A DNA stretch of 64,000 bases, taken from assembly GCA_029565675.1 (NCBI GenBank), contig JAKQNP010000040.1, positions 1 to 64,000 of the forward strand, read 5' to 3'. The notes beneath the pieces are model-generated. The model was given only the letters and a program-made list of their open reading frames with translations, was not told the DNA's origin and made no database searches. The translations under genes and the position numbers were made by a program. Each line of letters opens with the position of its first letter. Position 1 is the stretch's first letter. Of this stretch, positions 3,916 through 54,995 are shown piece after piece. Source of the stretch: a bacterium. GTDB taxonomy: Bacteria; Zhuqueibacterota; Zhuqueibacteria; Residuimicrobiales; Oceaniaggregativiventaceae.

Positions 3916-5100
3916 CTATGAATTTGAGGCGAACCAGTGCTGGGTTTTCAAACTAATCCTGACCAACATCAGCATCACTGGCACCTCAATCAACACACCA
4001 ACGACTGTTGCCAAAGAAGCGCCGGAAGAAAGGCCGAAAAGCATGACCGAGGTGGCGATGGCGACTTCGAAATGGTTCGAGGCACCGATCATGGCCGCCG
4101 GCGCGGCGTCCCGGTAGTTCAATTTCAGTAGTTTTGCCAGACCATAACCCAACCAAAAAATCAGATTGGTCTGAATAAACAGCGGAATGGCAATCCAGAC
4201 GATGGTCAGCGGATTGGCAATGATCACGTCACCTTTAAAGCTGAACAAGAGGATCAGTGTTGCCAACAGGGCGATGATGGTCACTGGCGTGAGAAAATGA
4301 AGAAATTTTTGTTGAAACCATTCAATCCCACGAGCCTTGATAATCCAATTGCGGGAAAGGTATCCTGCCACCAGAGGCAGCGCCACATAAACAGCGATGG
4401 AAAGAAGCAAGGCTTGCCAGGGAACGGGAAGTTTACCGACGCCGAGCAAAAAACCGCCCAGCACGCCATACAGCACCAGCATGGTCAAAGAATTGATCGC
4501 CACCATGACCAGAGTCAGTCCATCGTTGCCTCTTGCCAGATAGCCCCAGACCAGGACCATTGCGGTACAGGGGGCGATGCCCAACAGAATGCAACCCGCC
4601 AGATAGCTGCGCCACAGAGGAATCTCGAGCATTTTCGCGCCATCGGCCAGAACCACGGTTCCGGCGCCATGCTGTGCGCCGACCGGCAGATCGAGCCCGA
4701 AAGGCATTTTGACCAGATCTGTGGCTTCAGCGCCGATCAGACCGCGAAACAAGACGCCGAGGAAGAAAAGCGCAATTGCATACATGGTAAAGGGCTTGAT
4801 CGCCCAATTTATGAACAAGGTCAATCCGACCGGCTTGCCGCTTTTGCCGGCTTTAATGACTTCCGCAAAATCGATTTTGACCATGATGGGATACATCATA
4901 AAAAAGAGACAGACCGCAATGGGAATCGACACCACCGGGGCGCCATTGATGATCAACGAAAGTCCATCCAGATAGCGCGCCACACCTGGCGCGATTTTTC
5001 CCAGCAGGATACCGCCGACGATACAGAGTCCGACCCAGAGAGTCAAATATTGTTCAAAAACATTCATACTCCCGGTTTCTAATCTGGAAATTTTGCTCAT
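3916..5100 (-). CDS. arsB: ACR3-family arsenite efflux transporter
   Basis: This 394-residue inner-membrane protein has about ten hydrophobic segments and matches the ACR3 (bile/arsenite/riboflavin transporter superfamily) arsenite exporters. The N-terminal [20 protein letters not shown] segment and the [12 protein letters not shown] motif, with its conserved cysteine, are characteristic. It should expel As(III), possibly Sb(III), using the proton motive force. I chose the ATG at 5100 because GGAGGAG lies just upstream; an in-frame ATG six codons earlier would place that site inside the gene. It is followed by usp and the small thioredoxin. The gene name acr3 is equally used. Confidence 0.9.
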
Positions 5101-5131
5101 GCACTCCTCCAAAACCAAACAATTTTTAAGC

Positions 5132-5202
5132 TGTCAACGACCAAGCTCACCGGCGGCAATGGCGCGCAGCGGAATTGCCGCCGGTGGAGAGTCTTGTTAG
5201 GC
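5132..5202. other. Integron attC-like recombination site
   Basis: This 71-base imperfect palindrome lies between the arsenite pump and the Cys-rich gene. The core is a perfect 13-bp inverted repeat, CACCGGCGGCAAT (5148-5160) with ATTGCCGCCGGTG (5174-5186). At the outer ends are GTTAGGC (5196-5202; GTTRRRY 7/7) and TGTCAAC (5132-5138; RYYYAAC 5/7). Spacing and layout match attC sites of integron gene cassettes. No integrase gene is in the window. A simple attenuator-type hairpin is the alternative, although no T-tract follows. Confidence 0.5.
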
Positions 5203-5231
5203 AATGATAATCTCCTATTGGTTCTACCAGC

Positions 5232-5426
5232 TTAAAGTCTTTTTTTCTTATCTTCATTCTTTCTTAAATCAGGATTCGGCGTTGAGCTACAGCAGCTCGG
5301 TGTACAATTTCTTGAGTCAGAAGATTTTACTTCATTTGAATCGACTTCTTCAAGCTTCGGTGAGCAACAAGAAGTTTTTTGTCCAAAGATTTTTTTGAAA
5401 AAGCTGGTCTTTTTTTCGTCTTTCAT
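5232..5426 (-). CDS. Small cysteine-rich cytoplasmic protein next to permease
   Basis: This 64-residue, strongly charged protein has no membrane span. It carries two Cys pairs (SCCSP near residue 20 and SCCSS near residue 46) plus one more Cys at 41, and ends in a lysine tail. The cysteine pairs suggest soft-metal or metalloid binding. AAGGAGA lies 8 bases before the ATG at 5426, and the gene begins 19 bases after the permease stop, so it is translated with it. I infer that it is a metalloid-binding partner of the permease; no named family was recognised. Confidence 0.65.
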   Translation of the reverse strand: MKDEKKTSFFKKIFGQKTSCCSPKLEEVDSNEVKSSDSRNCTPSCCSSTPNPDLRKNEDKKKRL

Positions 5427-5445
5427 GTATTTTTCTCCTTTGAAA

Positions 5446-6348
5446 TTAGAGGATTGTGTTGAATAAGTACCCGCCCACGACTGCTGTTGTCCAGATGACA
5501 ACAACGATTGCGCCAACCAGACGCTTTCTAAAAATACTCGCCAGCATGGCCATTTCGGGTATCGCCATGCCTGCACCGCCGATAATTAAAGCAATAACCG
5601 CTCCCATGCTCATACCTTTTTGCGACAAGGCCAACCCAATCGGAATGGCTGTTTCAGCCCTGATGTAAAGCGGGACCCCAATGCTTGCCGCGACAGGAAT
5701 AGCAAATGGGTTGTCTGGGCCGGCTATGTTTGTCACAAAGTCTTGAGGAATGTATCCGTAAATACCAGCACCGATTGCGACACCAACTAGAAGATAAATG
5801 AGGACCGCTTTAAAATCGCCCCAGGCGGAGATAAATGACGCTTTTAATTTCCCGGAAAAGGTTAATGGACTACTTTCAGAATCATGGGTAGCGCCACAAC
5901 AGTTCGGTTTGATCCTGAGCTTTTTCACATAGTGCGCCCCACCGATTTTTTCAAGAACAACACCGAAGAGCATCGATCCCACAAAAGTGACTCCGAAATA
6001 GAGCAAACACGCTTTTATCCCCATCAGCGCCCAGACCATGCTGATAATGATCGGGTTGAGCAGAGGTGAAGCGATGACAAATGACATGACCGGTCCAAAT
6101 GGTGCCCCGGCATTCAGCATGCCAAGCGTCATTGGTATGGTTGAGCATGCGCAAAAGGGGGTGAGCGATCCAACCACGGCCCCCAGAAAGTTTCCCCAAA
6201 TTCCGCGATGCGAGAGCCACTGTCTGAGTTTTTCTTGCGGGATATACATTAATACCAGCGCAACGATTGTGCTGATGCCCAAAAAAAGCACCGTCAGTTC
6301 TGCAGTGATGATCAAAAAATATTGAATGGTACTGATCAGGTTGTTCAT
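5446..6348 (-). CDS. CACS-motif permease (ArsP/DUF318-like)
   Basis: This 300-residue membrane protein has about eight spans in two similar halves. It carries the TPFCACSTIPM motif near residue 62, a signature of the DUF318/ArsP permease family that includes exporters of organoarsenicals and possibly other thiol-reactive ions. A cytoplasmic loop around residues 145-160 has an extra CC pair (PNCCG). The Cys-rich gene follows after 19 bases. Attachment-site-like sequences flank the two genes at 5132-5202 and 6407-6458. Substrate is inferred from the arsenic context only. Confidence 0.8.
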   Translation of the reverse strand: MNNLISTIQYFLIITAELTVLFLGISTIVALVLMYIPQEKLRQWLSHRGIWGNFLGAVVGSLTPFCACSTIPMTLGMLNAGAPFGPVMSFVIASPLLNPIIISMVWALMGIKACLLYFGVTFVGSMLFGVVLEKIGGAHYVKKLRIKPNCCGATHDSESSPLTFSGKLKASFISAWGDFKAVLIYLLVGVAIGAGIYGYIPQDFVTNIAGPDNPFAIPVAASIGVPLYIRAETAIPIGLALSQKGMSMGAVIALIIGGAGMAIPEMAMLASIFRKRLVGAIVVVIWTTAVVGGYLFNTIL

Positions 6349-6406
6349 TCCATAATTCTTTCTATCATGGTTGACGATTTCAACTTGTTTTGTGATTTTT
6401 TCTTAC

Positions 6407-6458
6407 GCCTAACAGATTGTCCTATTGACATTTTGACAATCACCAGCGATTGTTGAGC
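6407..6458. other. Possible second, short attC-like site
   Basis: GCCTAAC (6407-6413; RYYYAAC 7/7) and GTTGAGC (6452-6458; GTTRRRY 7/7) bracket a 7-bp inverted repeat, GATTGTC (6415-6421) and GACAATC (6435-6441). At 52 bases the element is slightly shorter than usual attC sites, and the spacing of its arms is asymmetric. Short consensus boxes recur by chance, so support comes mainly from the stronger site on the other side of the permease pair. Confidence 0.25.
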
Positions 6459-6470
6459 AAAACACGGTTT

Positions 6471-7247
6471 TTATTGCCCAGCCAGTTTTTTATAGAGGCT
6501 GGTCAAACGAGAGTGGTAAATCGCGCGAATCTGTGTTTCGCTCTCCTCCAGCGGCTTTACCGGAATGAGATCGGCCATCTCTTCATACGGCATGCCTGAA
6601 TCGAACAACAATTCCAGCGTATTGCGAGTCATTGCTTTCAATGCGGCGATGGCCTCTTGATCCGTCAATCCGAATTCGATCCCCAGTTTTTTCAGCTCAT
6701 CCAGGTGCGGCGACAGATAAGTTGGGCCCATCGCGGTGAGAACCGCATAGGCTTCGAGTTTCTCTTCATCCACCTGGGGACACTGTCCAAAGAGCGCAAA
6801 AAAATCGAGCAAATTCTTTTTCTCAGCCGCGGTGAATGATTCAGCAAACCACACCGGATTATAACCGCTATTCATCAAGGTTGCTGCATTGGGTATCATG
6901 CGCACAATCCGGTTAAAACCATTCAACAAATCGAGCAGCCTGCTCGATTTATAGACTGGCGCCAGCGATACAACCGCTTTTGCATTTTGAATGCTCGAAG
7001 CGATTTCGGGCAATACGTGCTTGAAAACCGGCGGATGAACAGCCAGAAATACGAGTTCCTGATTTGCGGCGTCGACAGCTGATCCAGGTGAAATGTTCAA
7101 GTTGGGCTTTCCGAATGCCAACCTGGACACGGCTTGACTATCAGGATCGCTGACAACAATTTGGGCAGCCTCGAACCGTTTGTTGTGCAAGGCCTGCAGA
7201 AAAATATTGACAATTCTCCCCCCGCCAATAAAACCGACGCGATTCAT
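6471..7247 (-). CDS. Pyrroline-5-carboxylate reductase-like NAD(P) enzyme
   Basis: This 258-residue protein begins with a Rossmann motif (VGFIGGGRIVNIF; Gly-x-Gly-Gly) and shows the ProC-like order: nucleotide domain to about residue 150, then a helical dimerisation domain. Conserved-type segments include FLAVHPP and RMIPNAATLMNSG, which resembles the ProC substrate loop. ProC reduces pyrroline-5-carboxylate to proline. This sequence is divergent and sits among metalloid genes, so a different imine or F420-type substrate is possible. AAGGAGG at 7254-7260 fixes the start at 7247. Confidence 0.65.
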   Translation of the reverse strand: MNRVGFIGGGRIVNIFLQALHNKRFEAAQIVVSDPDSQAVSRLAFGKPNLNISPGSAVDAANQELVFLAVHPPVFKHVLPEIASSIQNAKAVVSLAPVYKSSRLLDLLNGFNRIVRMIPNAATLMNSGYNPVWFAESFTAAEKKNLLDFFALFGQCPQVDEEKLEAYAVLTAMGPTYLSPHLDELKKLGIEFGLTDQEAIAALKAMTRNTLELLFDSGMPYEEMADLIPVKPLEESETQIRAIYHSRLTSLYKKLAGQ

Positions 7248-7388
7248 TTTCAGCCTCCTTGATCGGCGTTTTTGCTGGATCACCTGACCTATTCCTGTCG
7301 ATATCGGGCAATCAGCCGATTTGCGAATACTCTACTCTCCAAGGCAAAGTGCTCGATTACAAATTGCCGGCTCACAGAGGACAGCGGA

Positions 7389-8165
7389 TCATAAGGCGAT
7401 TGCATACGCCACATTGATGGTCTCCACCAGGTTCTGAAGAAGAACTTTTACCGATTTTTCTCGTCCATTAATCGCACTCATCGCCAACTCGTCAAGTTGG
7501 GCAGATAAAGTTTTCAAAGCAGCCTGGTAATCGCTACACCGCTCCGGATTGTGTGGAGCAGGACAGGGAGCCAGAACAACAGCATCGCGCAACTCGAGCA
7601 GGTCACGCATCAGCGGCTGGATAGCGGAGAGTCCCGATTTTGTTTCCAGATCGATGATTTGTTTGGCCAGCTTGCGCAGATGGAAAAGACGATCCGCCGC
7701 ATAGACCAGGTTGTTCTCTTCATGCATTTGAACGAACAGGCCGCACGCTTTGGCACAAGCCTTGAAGGACAATTGAACATCCCCTTTGGCCAGTTCGTTT
7801 TCCATCTCGTTCATTGCCTGATGGATAGCCGCCAAACGAGCGGCAAAGGTTGTATCGGCTCGATACTCGGCCGGCGGTTGATTCTTATATTTTTGCTCGA
7901 GTTTTTGCCATTTTTCGACTGATTTTTGGATATGCTCGATTGCAGCCGCTTGTTTTATTTCATCAAACTCCTTCATCAATTCCTGCATCAAAGCGCAGCT
8001 CTTGCGCATCTCCTGGCGGCTTTGCAGCACCAGGGCATCAAAAATTTCCAGCTCTGCAGACATTTTAAAGCTGTATGCGTTGTTTTGTTCGGTTTGCCCG
8101 GCGAAAGAGCAAACCGCTAAAGCCAGAAGAAGTGCAGCCCTGGTGAAAATAAAATGTGGTTTCAT
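7389..8165 (-). CDS. Exported helical protein of unknown function
   Basis: No family was recognised. The 258-residue product has a signal peptide (hydrophobic core about residues 8-21, ending near SFAG) and is then almost entirely helical and charged. It has a CAKACG pair in the middle and two cysteines around CPAPHNPERC near residue 195. There is no CxxCH haem site. AGGAG precedes the ATG at 8165. The 118-residue gene ends 18 bases upstream, so the two are co-transcribed. A periplasmic metal-binding or chaperone-like role would fit the island but is conjecture. Confidence 0.6.
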   Translation of the reverse strand: MKPHFIFTRAALLLALAVCSFAGQTEQNNAYSFKMSAELEIFDALVLQSRQEMRKSCALMQELMKEFDEIKQAAAIEHIQKSVEKWQKLEQKYKNQPPAEYRADTTFAARLAAIHQAMNEMENELAKGDVQLSFKACAKACGLFVQMHEENNLVYAADRLFHLRKLAKQIIDLETKSGLSAIQPLMRDLLELRDAVVLAPCPAPHNPERCSDYQAALKTLSAQLDELAMSAINGREKSVKVLLQNLVETINVAYAIAL

Positions 8166-52798: not shown

Positions 52799-54995
52799 CG
52801 ATATACAGGCCGATCGCCGCAAATGGAATTTTTTTGAATTCGGGCAATTCCTTATACACCGGCGAATCATCGGAGAGCTGAAAATTCAAATCGGCTTTAT
52901 CTATAAAACCCGGGTCTTGAGAACTGATCAAGTTCAATCCTATTTCGAATTGTGCATGTTCGCCGACCCACCGATAGGTTTCGTCATACCCGATGATCGC
53001 GTTGTGGTAAAAGCGATTTCGGCGAGGACGCATGCCGACAAAAGTTTTACCGTCTGGCAGCAGGTCCATCCAGTCCACGAGTTCCGGATAGCGTTCGCTG
53101 TAGGGCGGCTTTTTGATGTCCAGCAGCTGGGTTAATCGGCGGTGATAGATGCCGCCGGAATCAAAAAAAATCGACACCTGATCACGGCCGAAATCGTACC
53201 ACATCGATTTGATGGTCAGGACCGGGCCATAACCTTCCACAAAGATATTGTTGCGCACTTCGAGGTCGTGGCCGGCATTGCTGTAAATCGTGCCGTAGGA
53301 CCCGACACGATAAAAGACATTGCCTTCGACCAGCGCACCGCAGGTGCCATCGTCGAAATAGACGCCCATGGTCCATTCGCGTTCCGGATTGCCGCAGTGA
53401 TGAAAAAAATTGTAGCGGATCACGTTGCCGCGATCGCTGGGATCCCGCCCCAGATACCAGGGCGATGAATCGTTGGAATTGAGAGCGATATGATGGATGT
53501 GGTTGTATTCAAAGAGATGATTGTTGCCATGCACATAGATCCCCTGGAAATCTGAATTGTAAATCTCATTGTGGGAGATGCGATTGCCGCAGCCATCGAT
53601 GTTGATGCCTGACCAGAGAAACTTGTTGCGACGGTTGTAGTCGTAGAGGCGACAATTTTCCACCGAACAATTGCCCGCTGTCAGTTCTTTTTTGCTGCCG
53701 CCGCTCAGATAGATAGCGCCGCTGCCGGTGTCGTAGATATCGCAGCTGAGGATGCGGTGATTTTTGCCGCCGTTGCGTTCCCAGGTGGTGTATTTGTACA
53801 GGTGACCCTGCAGGTTACCGATCTCGCGCGAGACCGGAAAACCTTCATAATCGTCTACGGTAATGTGGGGGAAGGTTTGTCGGGCACCCTGGCCCATGAA
53901 AATTCCGGTCATGCCCAATGCATGCAAAGTGCAACCGGCGATCAAATTGTTTTCCCCGCCTTCGATCGTGATGCCGATACCGCGGCTCATGCCGATAGTC
54001 AAATTTTTCAGATCGACAAAGGAGACATTTTCCATCACGATCAGAGGATCCTCTAACACGGAGACGCGGATTTCCGCATTGGCAAGATTGGCAGGCGGCC
54101 ATACGTACAAACGACCGTTCTTGCGATCGATATAATACTCGCCGGCTTGATCGAGTTCTTCCAGCAAATTGTGCGCATAATAATGGCGATAGGGTTTTCC
54201 AGTTCCGATGCCGTAGAGATGCGGATAAGCCAGGCGAACAGTTTTGGCTGCGGTATCGATTGCTGCCACCTGGATGTGATCGTCGGCATATCCCCACATA
54301 AAGGTGCCCTGCAGCCAAAGGTTGTCGGTCTGCATCCAGCGCGCATGGCGGTCATCGGTATAGCGAAAAGTGCCGCCGCGGATGTTTTCATAGTCGCCGA
54401 TGCGGGGAATGGAGCCGGGATCGAGGACCTCGCCGATCAACAGATAACCGCTGTTGGGGTAGCGCGCCAAGGTCATGACCCGGCGGTTGATAAAGAGTTC
54501 CATCTGGGCCGGTACCACCGATTGCGAATGGCCGTATTGCTGCAATCGGCCGTAATCCAGGATGCCTAGTTTGCGCAGATCGCAGCTCCAAACCTTGCCG
54601 CGGCTGATTTCAGGCAGGCGGCGTAAAAGTTCGGATGGCTGCACCGGCTGAAAAGATTCAGCGGGCAGGGCGTGTGAGCCGGTGATCAGCACGGATTCGC
54701 CCGGCCATGCGCTATAGGTGATGCGGGAAGTGGGCGTGCCTGAATCTTGTTCGAGCAATTCAAAACTGCTCGCAAGCTCATAGATACCCTGGCGCAGCCA
54801 CACCGTGGCGCCTTCCGCCGGCAGATCGTTTTGGGCTTTCAGCGCACGAATGACATCCCGGGCTTTCTCCAGAGTGCGAAAGGGTTTGCTCTCGCTGCCG
54901 GGCCAATTGTCGTCGCCGTTGGGTGAAACCGTCAATTCCAAACTCCAGAGCGGAACCGTAGTCACGATCAACAGGATGAACAGGAAATTTTTCAT
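52770..54995 (-). CDS. Secreted right-handed beta-helix protein
   Basis: This 741-residue protein has a signal peptide (residues 1-18, ending near WSLE) and a long parallel beta-helix repeat region (about 290-600). The repeats show the N-x-I/V-x-x-N pattern (NCSVENCRLYDYNRR, ISHNEIYNSDFQGIYVHGNN, NVIRYNFFHHCGN). The N-terminal segment DDNWPGSESKPFRTLEKARD is typical of DUF1565/pectate-lyase-like proteins. Such enzymes cleave or bind acidic polysaccharides outside the cytoplasm. GAGGAAGAT fixes the start at 54995. It opens the group with GH2, GH57 and SSS. Confidence 0.85.
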   Translation of the reverse strand: MKNFLFILLIVTTVPLWSLELTVSPNGDDNWPGSESKPFRTLEKARDVIRALKAQNDLPAEGATVWLRQGIYELASSFELLEQDSGTPTSRITYSAWPGESVLITGSHALPAESFQPVQPSELLRRLPEISRGKVWSCDLRKLGILDYGRLQQYGHSQSVVPAQMELFINRRVMTLARYPNSGYLLIGEVLDPGSIPRIGDYENIRGGTFRYTDDRHARWMQTDNLWLQGTFMWGYADDHIQVAAIDTAAKTVRLAYPHLYGIGTGKPYRHYYAHNLLEELDQAGEYYIDRKNGRLYVWPPANLANAEIRVSVLEDPLIVMENVSFVDLKNLTIGMSRGIGITIEGGENNLIAGCTLHALGMTGIFMGQGARQTFPHITVDDYEGFPVSREIGNLQGHLYKYTTWERNGGKNHRILSCDIYDTGSGAIYLSGGSKKELTAGNCSVENCRLYDYNRRNKFLWSGINIDGCGNRISHNEIYNSDFQGIYVHGNNHLFEYNHIHHIALNSNDSSPWYLGRDPSDRGNVIRYNFFHHCGNPEREWTMGVYFDDGTCGALVEGNVFYRVGSYGTIYSNAGHDLEVRNNIFVEGYGPVLTIKSMWYDFGRDQVSIFFDSGGIYHRRLTQLLDIKKPPYSERYPELVDWMDLLPDGKTFVGMRPRRNRFYHNAIIGYDETYRWVGEHAQFEIGLNLISSQDPGFIDKADLNFQLSDDSPVYKELPEFKKIPFAAIGLYIDEYRTSVAK

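Follow-up and report, generated by a model that had tools for sequence, protein, structure and literature searches.

A probable orphan integron cassette carrying a permease gene, inserted upstream of an arsenite efflux gene in a Zhuqueibacterota genome

We analysed a 64,000-nucleotide stretch of DNA from a bacterium of the Zhuqueibacterota (contig JAKQNP010000040.1 of assembly GCA_029565675.1, positions 1 to 64,000; hereafter the window), in which genes for a permease and a small Cys-rich protein stand beside the gene for an ACR3 arsenite efflux transporter. Positions 5138-6412 are very probably a single integron cassette, consisting of the permease gene, the Cys-rich protein gene and an attC recombination site, that was inserted at a secondary or attG-type site between a proC-like gene and the ACR3 gene. 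We regard the cassette as integron-borne because its attC site fits a covariance model, similar attC sites occur on three unrelated plasmids, the assembly encodes an integron integrase, the permease shows a pattern of transfer, and relatives keep the two host genes in order without it. An earlier sequence-only reading of this DNA had proposed an export cassette acquired through an integron beside the arsenite pump, with an attC-like site on either side of the two genes. An integron-borne cassette, with a cargo that presumably serves export, is upheld by this evidence, whereas the symmetrical arrangement is not: there is one attC, at the 3' end, and the other element is an insertion junction.

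Features of the region, all on the minus strand, are as follows.

5138-6412, minus: proposed inserted cassette of 1275 bp, with junctions between G6413 and T6412 (5') and between G5138 and T5137 (3')
5132-5202, minus: predicted attC site, with R'' GCCTAAC at 5202-5196, a hairpin, and R' GTTGACA at 5138-5132 (bases 5137-5132 read as host)
6407-6413, minus: predicted 5' insertion junction, host G6413 plus cassette TTAGGC; part of the second site of the sequence-only reading
5446-6348, minus: permease gene, ArsP_1 (PF03773, E 4.3e-54), 300 aa, with a CACS motif
5232-5426, minus: gene for a small Cys-rich protein, 64 aa, with no Pfam or NCBIfam family
6371-6383, minus: single hybrid MarR-type operator, TTGAAATCGTCAA, overlapping a weak promoter-like hexamer pair
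6413-6470, minus: upstream host portion of the insertion site, following the proC-like gene, as read from the sequence
5101-5137, minus: downstream host portion of the insertion site; GGAGGAG precedes an ACR3 ATG at 5100
6471-7283, minus: host proC-like gene, with an F420_oxidored match; TIGR00112 is below its cut-off
3916-5118, minus: host gene for the ACR3 arsenite efflux transporter, longest frame from TTG, ATG at 5100; TIGR00832 at 375 bits, over its cut-off

Identification of a single attC site

The element at 5132-5202 has the perfect 13-bp stem (5148-5160 paired with 5174-5186) and the GTTAGGC at 5196-5202 that the sequence-only reading had pointed out. Its orientation had to be revised: the attC reads on the minus strand, what had been taken as GTTRRRY is its R'' box, GCCTAAC, and GTTGACA serves as the 3' box. 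A second measurement of the palindrome gave 18-nt arms that are 89% complementary, and the single-stranded DNA fold of 5128-5208 surpassed all 200 shuffled sequences on each strand (z -4.5 and -4.8). We then used a covariance model made from eight plasmid attC sites (six from Thiolapillus, one from Geoalkalibacter and one from Citrobacter), none of which comes from the window. On the minus strand of 5132-5202 it gave 69.7 bits (E 2.2e-17) over the full model, positions 1-72, and this was the sole attC that it found in the window at E <= 10. As a control, the model was run on 57 permease-homologue loci, where 452,014 bases yielded no match at E <= 1. By these sequence measures, the element is an attC site, read on the minus strand like the genes. 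A regular-expression attC finder was too strict, missing most of the Thiolapillus sites that the model later found, and the covariance model was used in its place. An Rfam scan of 4500-7500 returned no match at the gathering score, and no phage sequence matched 5120-5220.

A BLAST search of 5100-6480 against plasmids produced four records. Three of these match the attC element alone, over stretches of 63-69 bases, with identities of 93.8% (Geoalkalibacter), 87.3% (Citrobacter) and 84.1% (Thiolapillus); the fourth matches part of the permease only. The Thiolapillus plasmid carries small genes, mostly on the same strand, that are separated by attC sites and form a multi-cassette array.

Predicted cassette borders and insertion junctions

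The crossover of a circular cassette falls between the G and the TT of its R' box, and an inserted cassette opens with its own R' half (TTRRRY) and closes with a half taken from the next sequence. Within the window, GTTAGGC or its complement GCCTAAC occurs in exactly two places, at 5196 and 6407, beside the two ends of the cassette. The start of the cassette (GTTAGGC) pairs at 7/7 positions with its own R'' GCCTAAC and the 3' box GTTGACA at 4/7; we therefore placed the cassette at 5138-6412 and read the 3' R' as host-derived. In the Thiolapillus array, for which all 10 model-found sites were taken, the 5' start pairs 7/7 with its own R'' in each of the nine testable cassettes (the first has no upstream site), and R'' pairs with the 3' box at 4-6 of 7 positions over the 10 sites.

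The second element of the sequence-only reading, at 6407-6458, does contain the box-like heptamers ascribed to it, but it fails as an attC. With filters off, the covariance model scored it at 5.9 bits on the minus strand, aligned at the boxes only, and at 3.8 bits on the plus strand. Its fold is weaker than that of the first element (z -2.3 and -2.5, matched by 4 and 5 of 200 shuffles), and no plasmid matched 6400-6470. The letters at the junction fit a G/TT site. Despite its heptamers, the element is thus best read as an insertion junction in host DNA, and its identity as an attC is excluded.

Gene order at the host locus

Joined without the cassette, the host flanks would read GGACAATCTG followed directly by TTGACAGC between the proC-like and ACR3 genes, and 95 bp (58 + 37) would separate the proC-like stop from the ACR3 ATG. 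Gene order was searched in 22 genomes, including that of the window, and a proC-like gene at E <= 1e-50 was found in eight relatives. In five of the eight (G002, G006, G007, G010 and G014), the next gene downstream on that strand is ACR3-like, with 27-118 bp between the matched stretches. The closest of these is G007, where the ACR3 is 86% identical and a short spacer alone separates it from the proC-like gene. A genome of the same genus, G001, has an ACR3 that is 91% identical, but in a different context. Outside the window, a search with the joined flanks gave matches limited to stretches of 25 and 32 bases, in two genomes, neither of which crosses the junction. The assembly also holds a second ACR3 gene, 85% identical to that of the window, on contig C4 (L211, about 53326-54507).

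Distribution of the permease in other bacteria

The permease is 93-95% identical to homologues in five records of other bacteria.

L020: metagenome-assembled genome (MAG), Proteobacteria
L021: MAG, Geobacteraceae
L022: MAG, Verrucomicrobiota
L023: Desulfobulbus rhabdoformis
L024: Desulfocarbo indianensis

DNA identity to these records is 87.7-89.3%, and the match stops at 6385 or 6386 in all five. No close copy was found in 59 relatives of the host, where the best-scoring match has 74 bits and 27% identity, and among the matches listed, partial ones included, none is above 36%. IMG/VR yielded no relative of the permease. An attC stands just after the Cys-rich gene in L022 (45.8 bits) and in L020 (39.1 bits). 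A further attC of L020, at 4937-5027 with 27.8 bits, follows a histidine kinase gene whose cassette start pairs 7/7, one G-T pair included, with the R'' of that site; this record therefore contains at least two cassettes. In L022 (4920-5215), the attC no longer folds to the usual hairpin and the Cys-rich gene has, by eye, an apparent short deletion near its start; this Verrucomicrobiota copy may be decaying. In L021, the place of the Cys-rich gene after the permease is taken, just after 4173, by what is presumably a REP-associated (Y1) transposase-like gene.

Cargo and its regulation

Against the NCBIfam models, the permease scores 103 bits for SaoE (cut-off 325) and 94 bits for SO_0444 (cut-off 300), and so passes neither equivalog. 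With ArsP exporters of trivalent organoarsenicals it shares the ArsP_1 family match. Homologues of the Cys-rich protein are encoded downstream of the permease in L020, L023-L026, L028 and L029, and the pattern FxxK[IL]FGxxxxCC is common to the protein and its homologues in seven aligned loci. ACR3-like DNA lies near the permease in L029, L030 and L032, which, together with the adjacent ACR3 gene in the window, suggests arsenic or another thiophilic metal as the substrate. The cargo probably exports a thiophilic metal or an (organo)arsenical, with the Cys-rich protein as its metal-binding partner.

The homologous loci differ from the window in having a regulator. A MarR-family gene precedes the permease in L020, a like frame does so in L022, and like sequence was seen by eye in L021 and L023-L028. 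Many such loci have a TTGAnnnnnTCAA operator before each of the two genes, regulator and permease; the window cassette has no marR gene and one operator only. We compared this operator with those of 29 loci (L020-L049 without L032). Its left flank matches that of the L022 regulator operator at 9/9 positions, the next best match being 6/9. The operator itself matches the L022 regulator operator at 12/13, as it does for L020, L023, L024, L027 and L040. On the right flank, the match is 9/12 to the permease operators of L023 and L024, 3/12 to the L022 regulator operator, and at most 7/12 to any regulator operator. We infer from this hybrid that a deletion between the operators removed the repressor gene. 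The promoter-like sites at the operator were no better than those in shuffled sequences. A search of the window's own genome gave no regulator homologue, but it had no positive control and shows little.

An integron integrase in the assembly

An integron integrase gene, which the sequence-only reading had suggested looking for elsewhere in the genome, is present in the assembly on a different contig. One protein in the assembly is over the integron-integrase cut-off (TIGR02249, 485.9 bits at C48:2250-3188; 355 aa). Its gene occupies positions 2247-3314 of L017, on the 3.5-kb contig C48, and the protein is 47-60% identical to the integrases of 19 loci from relatives. Such integrases were found in 25 of the 60 genomes of the set, including this one. 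The tetranucleotide make-up of C48 is ordinary for the genome (of 32 chunks, 13 are as typical or less so). Beyond the integrase reading frame the contig runs for another 185 bp; near its end a possible attI (GTTAGGAG) was read by eye, with perhaps the beginning of a first cassette.

Proposed origin of the insertion

To account for this arrangement, we propose that an integron integrase recombined the bottom strand of attC with a G/TT site between the proC-like and ACR3 genes. The target, which is unlike attC and has no integrase gene beside it, would be of the secondary or attG type, and the product would be a single orphan cassette, presumably expressed, upstream of the arsenite pump and in the same orientation. 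In the ancestral operon, a marR repressor gene would have stood between two operators of the same type, and a deletion between them would have removed it. The fuller scenario is that an inducible export operon, already moving across phyla as a cassette, lost its repressor between twin operators to become a compact two-gene cassette, which an integrase then set directly in front of the arsenite pump by way of an attG-type site. It is possible but tentative, and we hold it with rather less than even confidence.

Several observations weigh against an integron-mediated insertion. The R' of the window attC, GTTGACA, departs from the GTTRRRY form, which we attribute to the 3' box being a host half-site, with the cassette's own R' half TTAGGC at the 5' junction; the Thiolapillus array, too, has 3' boxes that deviate from it (e.g. 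GTTATGT). Full pairing is not rare in itself, since R'' reaches 7/7 with the starts of other cassettes in 13 of 81 comparisons within that array. The sequence-only reading had looked to relatives lacking the 1.3-kb segment, and the five relatives provide this at the level of gene order only: a search of 59 relatives with the joined flanks gave no empty site at base level, and G007 is the sole one of the five with a close ACR3, the main ACR3 segment of G002, G006, G010 and G014 being 39-40% identical. In 78 of 80 permease loci there is no attC in the stretches fetched, and a GTTRRRY 5' border was not found upstream in the parts inspected of L022 (2600-3420) and L020 (1-171). Among 21 relatives, no close homologue was found for the SPFH neighbour of the integrase (26% in the best-scoring match); contig C48 could be misbinned, and the acting integrase could have come from elsewhere.

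We place the single inserted cassette well ahead in our judgement of how the segment arose. A longer cassette array that degraded in place, with this segment as its remnant, is unlikely. The upstream flank does have an R''-like GCTCAAC at 6452-6458, but it scores just 5.9 bits, the 64 kb contain no second site by the model, and both flanks run straight into genes that are adjacent in five relatives, with a joined spacer of 95 bp that falls within the relatives' 27-118 bp. The position of a GC-rich hairpin directly after the genes would also suit an ordinary transcription terminator or regulatory palindrome, the permease genes having arrived by some other transfer. This we consider ruled out, or very nearly so, by the fit of the hairpin to all 72 positions of the attC model and by the exact complement of R'' at the far junction; moreover, no terminator-like site was called at the hairpin, and a similar element recurs without the permease genes on three plasmids. 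Equally improbable is the arrangement with an attC on each side of the genes. Box-like heptamers at both ends speak for it, yet we rejected it on the 5.9 bits of the second element, whose box is explained by the insertion junction.

Relation to known systems

Recchia and Hall are said to have described in 1995 the insertion of an aadB cassette at a secondary site in pIE723, and Loot et al. reportedly described cassette insertion at secondary or attG sites in 2024. The proposed insertion would resemble such cases in that one cassette would sit at a G/TT site that is apparently neither attI nor attC, with a host-derived 3' box. It differs in being natural, chromosomal and made up of an export operon, whereas those cases concern plasmid-borne resistance or a cassette library made in the laboratory. 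Passages of PMC12444791, PMC12901181 and PMC10127599 describe insertion at attG or secondary sites, and single orphan cassettes, or SALINs (single attC lacking integron integrase), are described in passages of PMC9229058 and PMC12690207, the former reporting 115 in Shewanella genomes. With one attC in the window by the model and the integrase on a different contig, the segment is, like a SALIN, a lone attC-bearing cassette in chromosomal DNA that lacks a neighbouring integrase gene; unlike in those cases, both junctions and the cassette-free gene order can be read here, and the assembly does contain an integrase. The operon shares a PF03773 permease, a Cys-rich partner and, in homologous loci, a MarR regulator with ArsP_1/SO_0444-type permease operons, but it falls below the SaoE and SO_0444 cut-offs and has no regulator in the window. 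Among the titles and abstract beginnings listed by literature searches on arsenic cassettes, SALINs and attG sites, none describes the present cassette.

The window cassette is thus a new and unusually legible case of an already known kind of orphan-cassette insertion. The cassette, its two G/TT junctions, the undisturbed gene order of relatives and a plausible regulator-bearing parent cassette can all be compared here. The locus offers a natural test for the spread of cassettes beyond integrons and for the way in which they bring metal or arsenic export genes to a resistance locus already in place. If the proposed history is true, a resistance locus grew although no integron was present there, and paired operators could give regulated operons a general, built-in means of shrinking into cassettes.

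Other attC sites

At E <= 0.01, the covariance model finds sites in 31 of the 60 genomes, including this one, some of which have no integrase at the strict limit (e.g. G002, G003 and G007). Across the window's own genome, 5132-5202 is the top of three sites at E <= 2.0e-6 (E 1.5e-15), and the fourth match has E 3.98. The other two lie at C43:59999-60072 (L207, 8000-8073), with 54.8 bits, behind a cupin gene, and at C31:5986-6060 (L208), with 38.2 bits, behind a gene with a weak TPR match. GTTATGC and GTTAGGG may be their 5' junctions; each matches its R'' at 6/7 paired positions.
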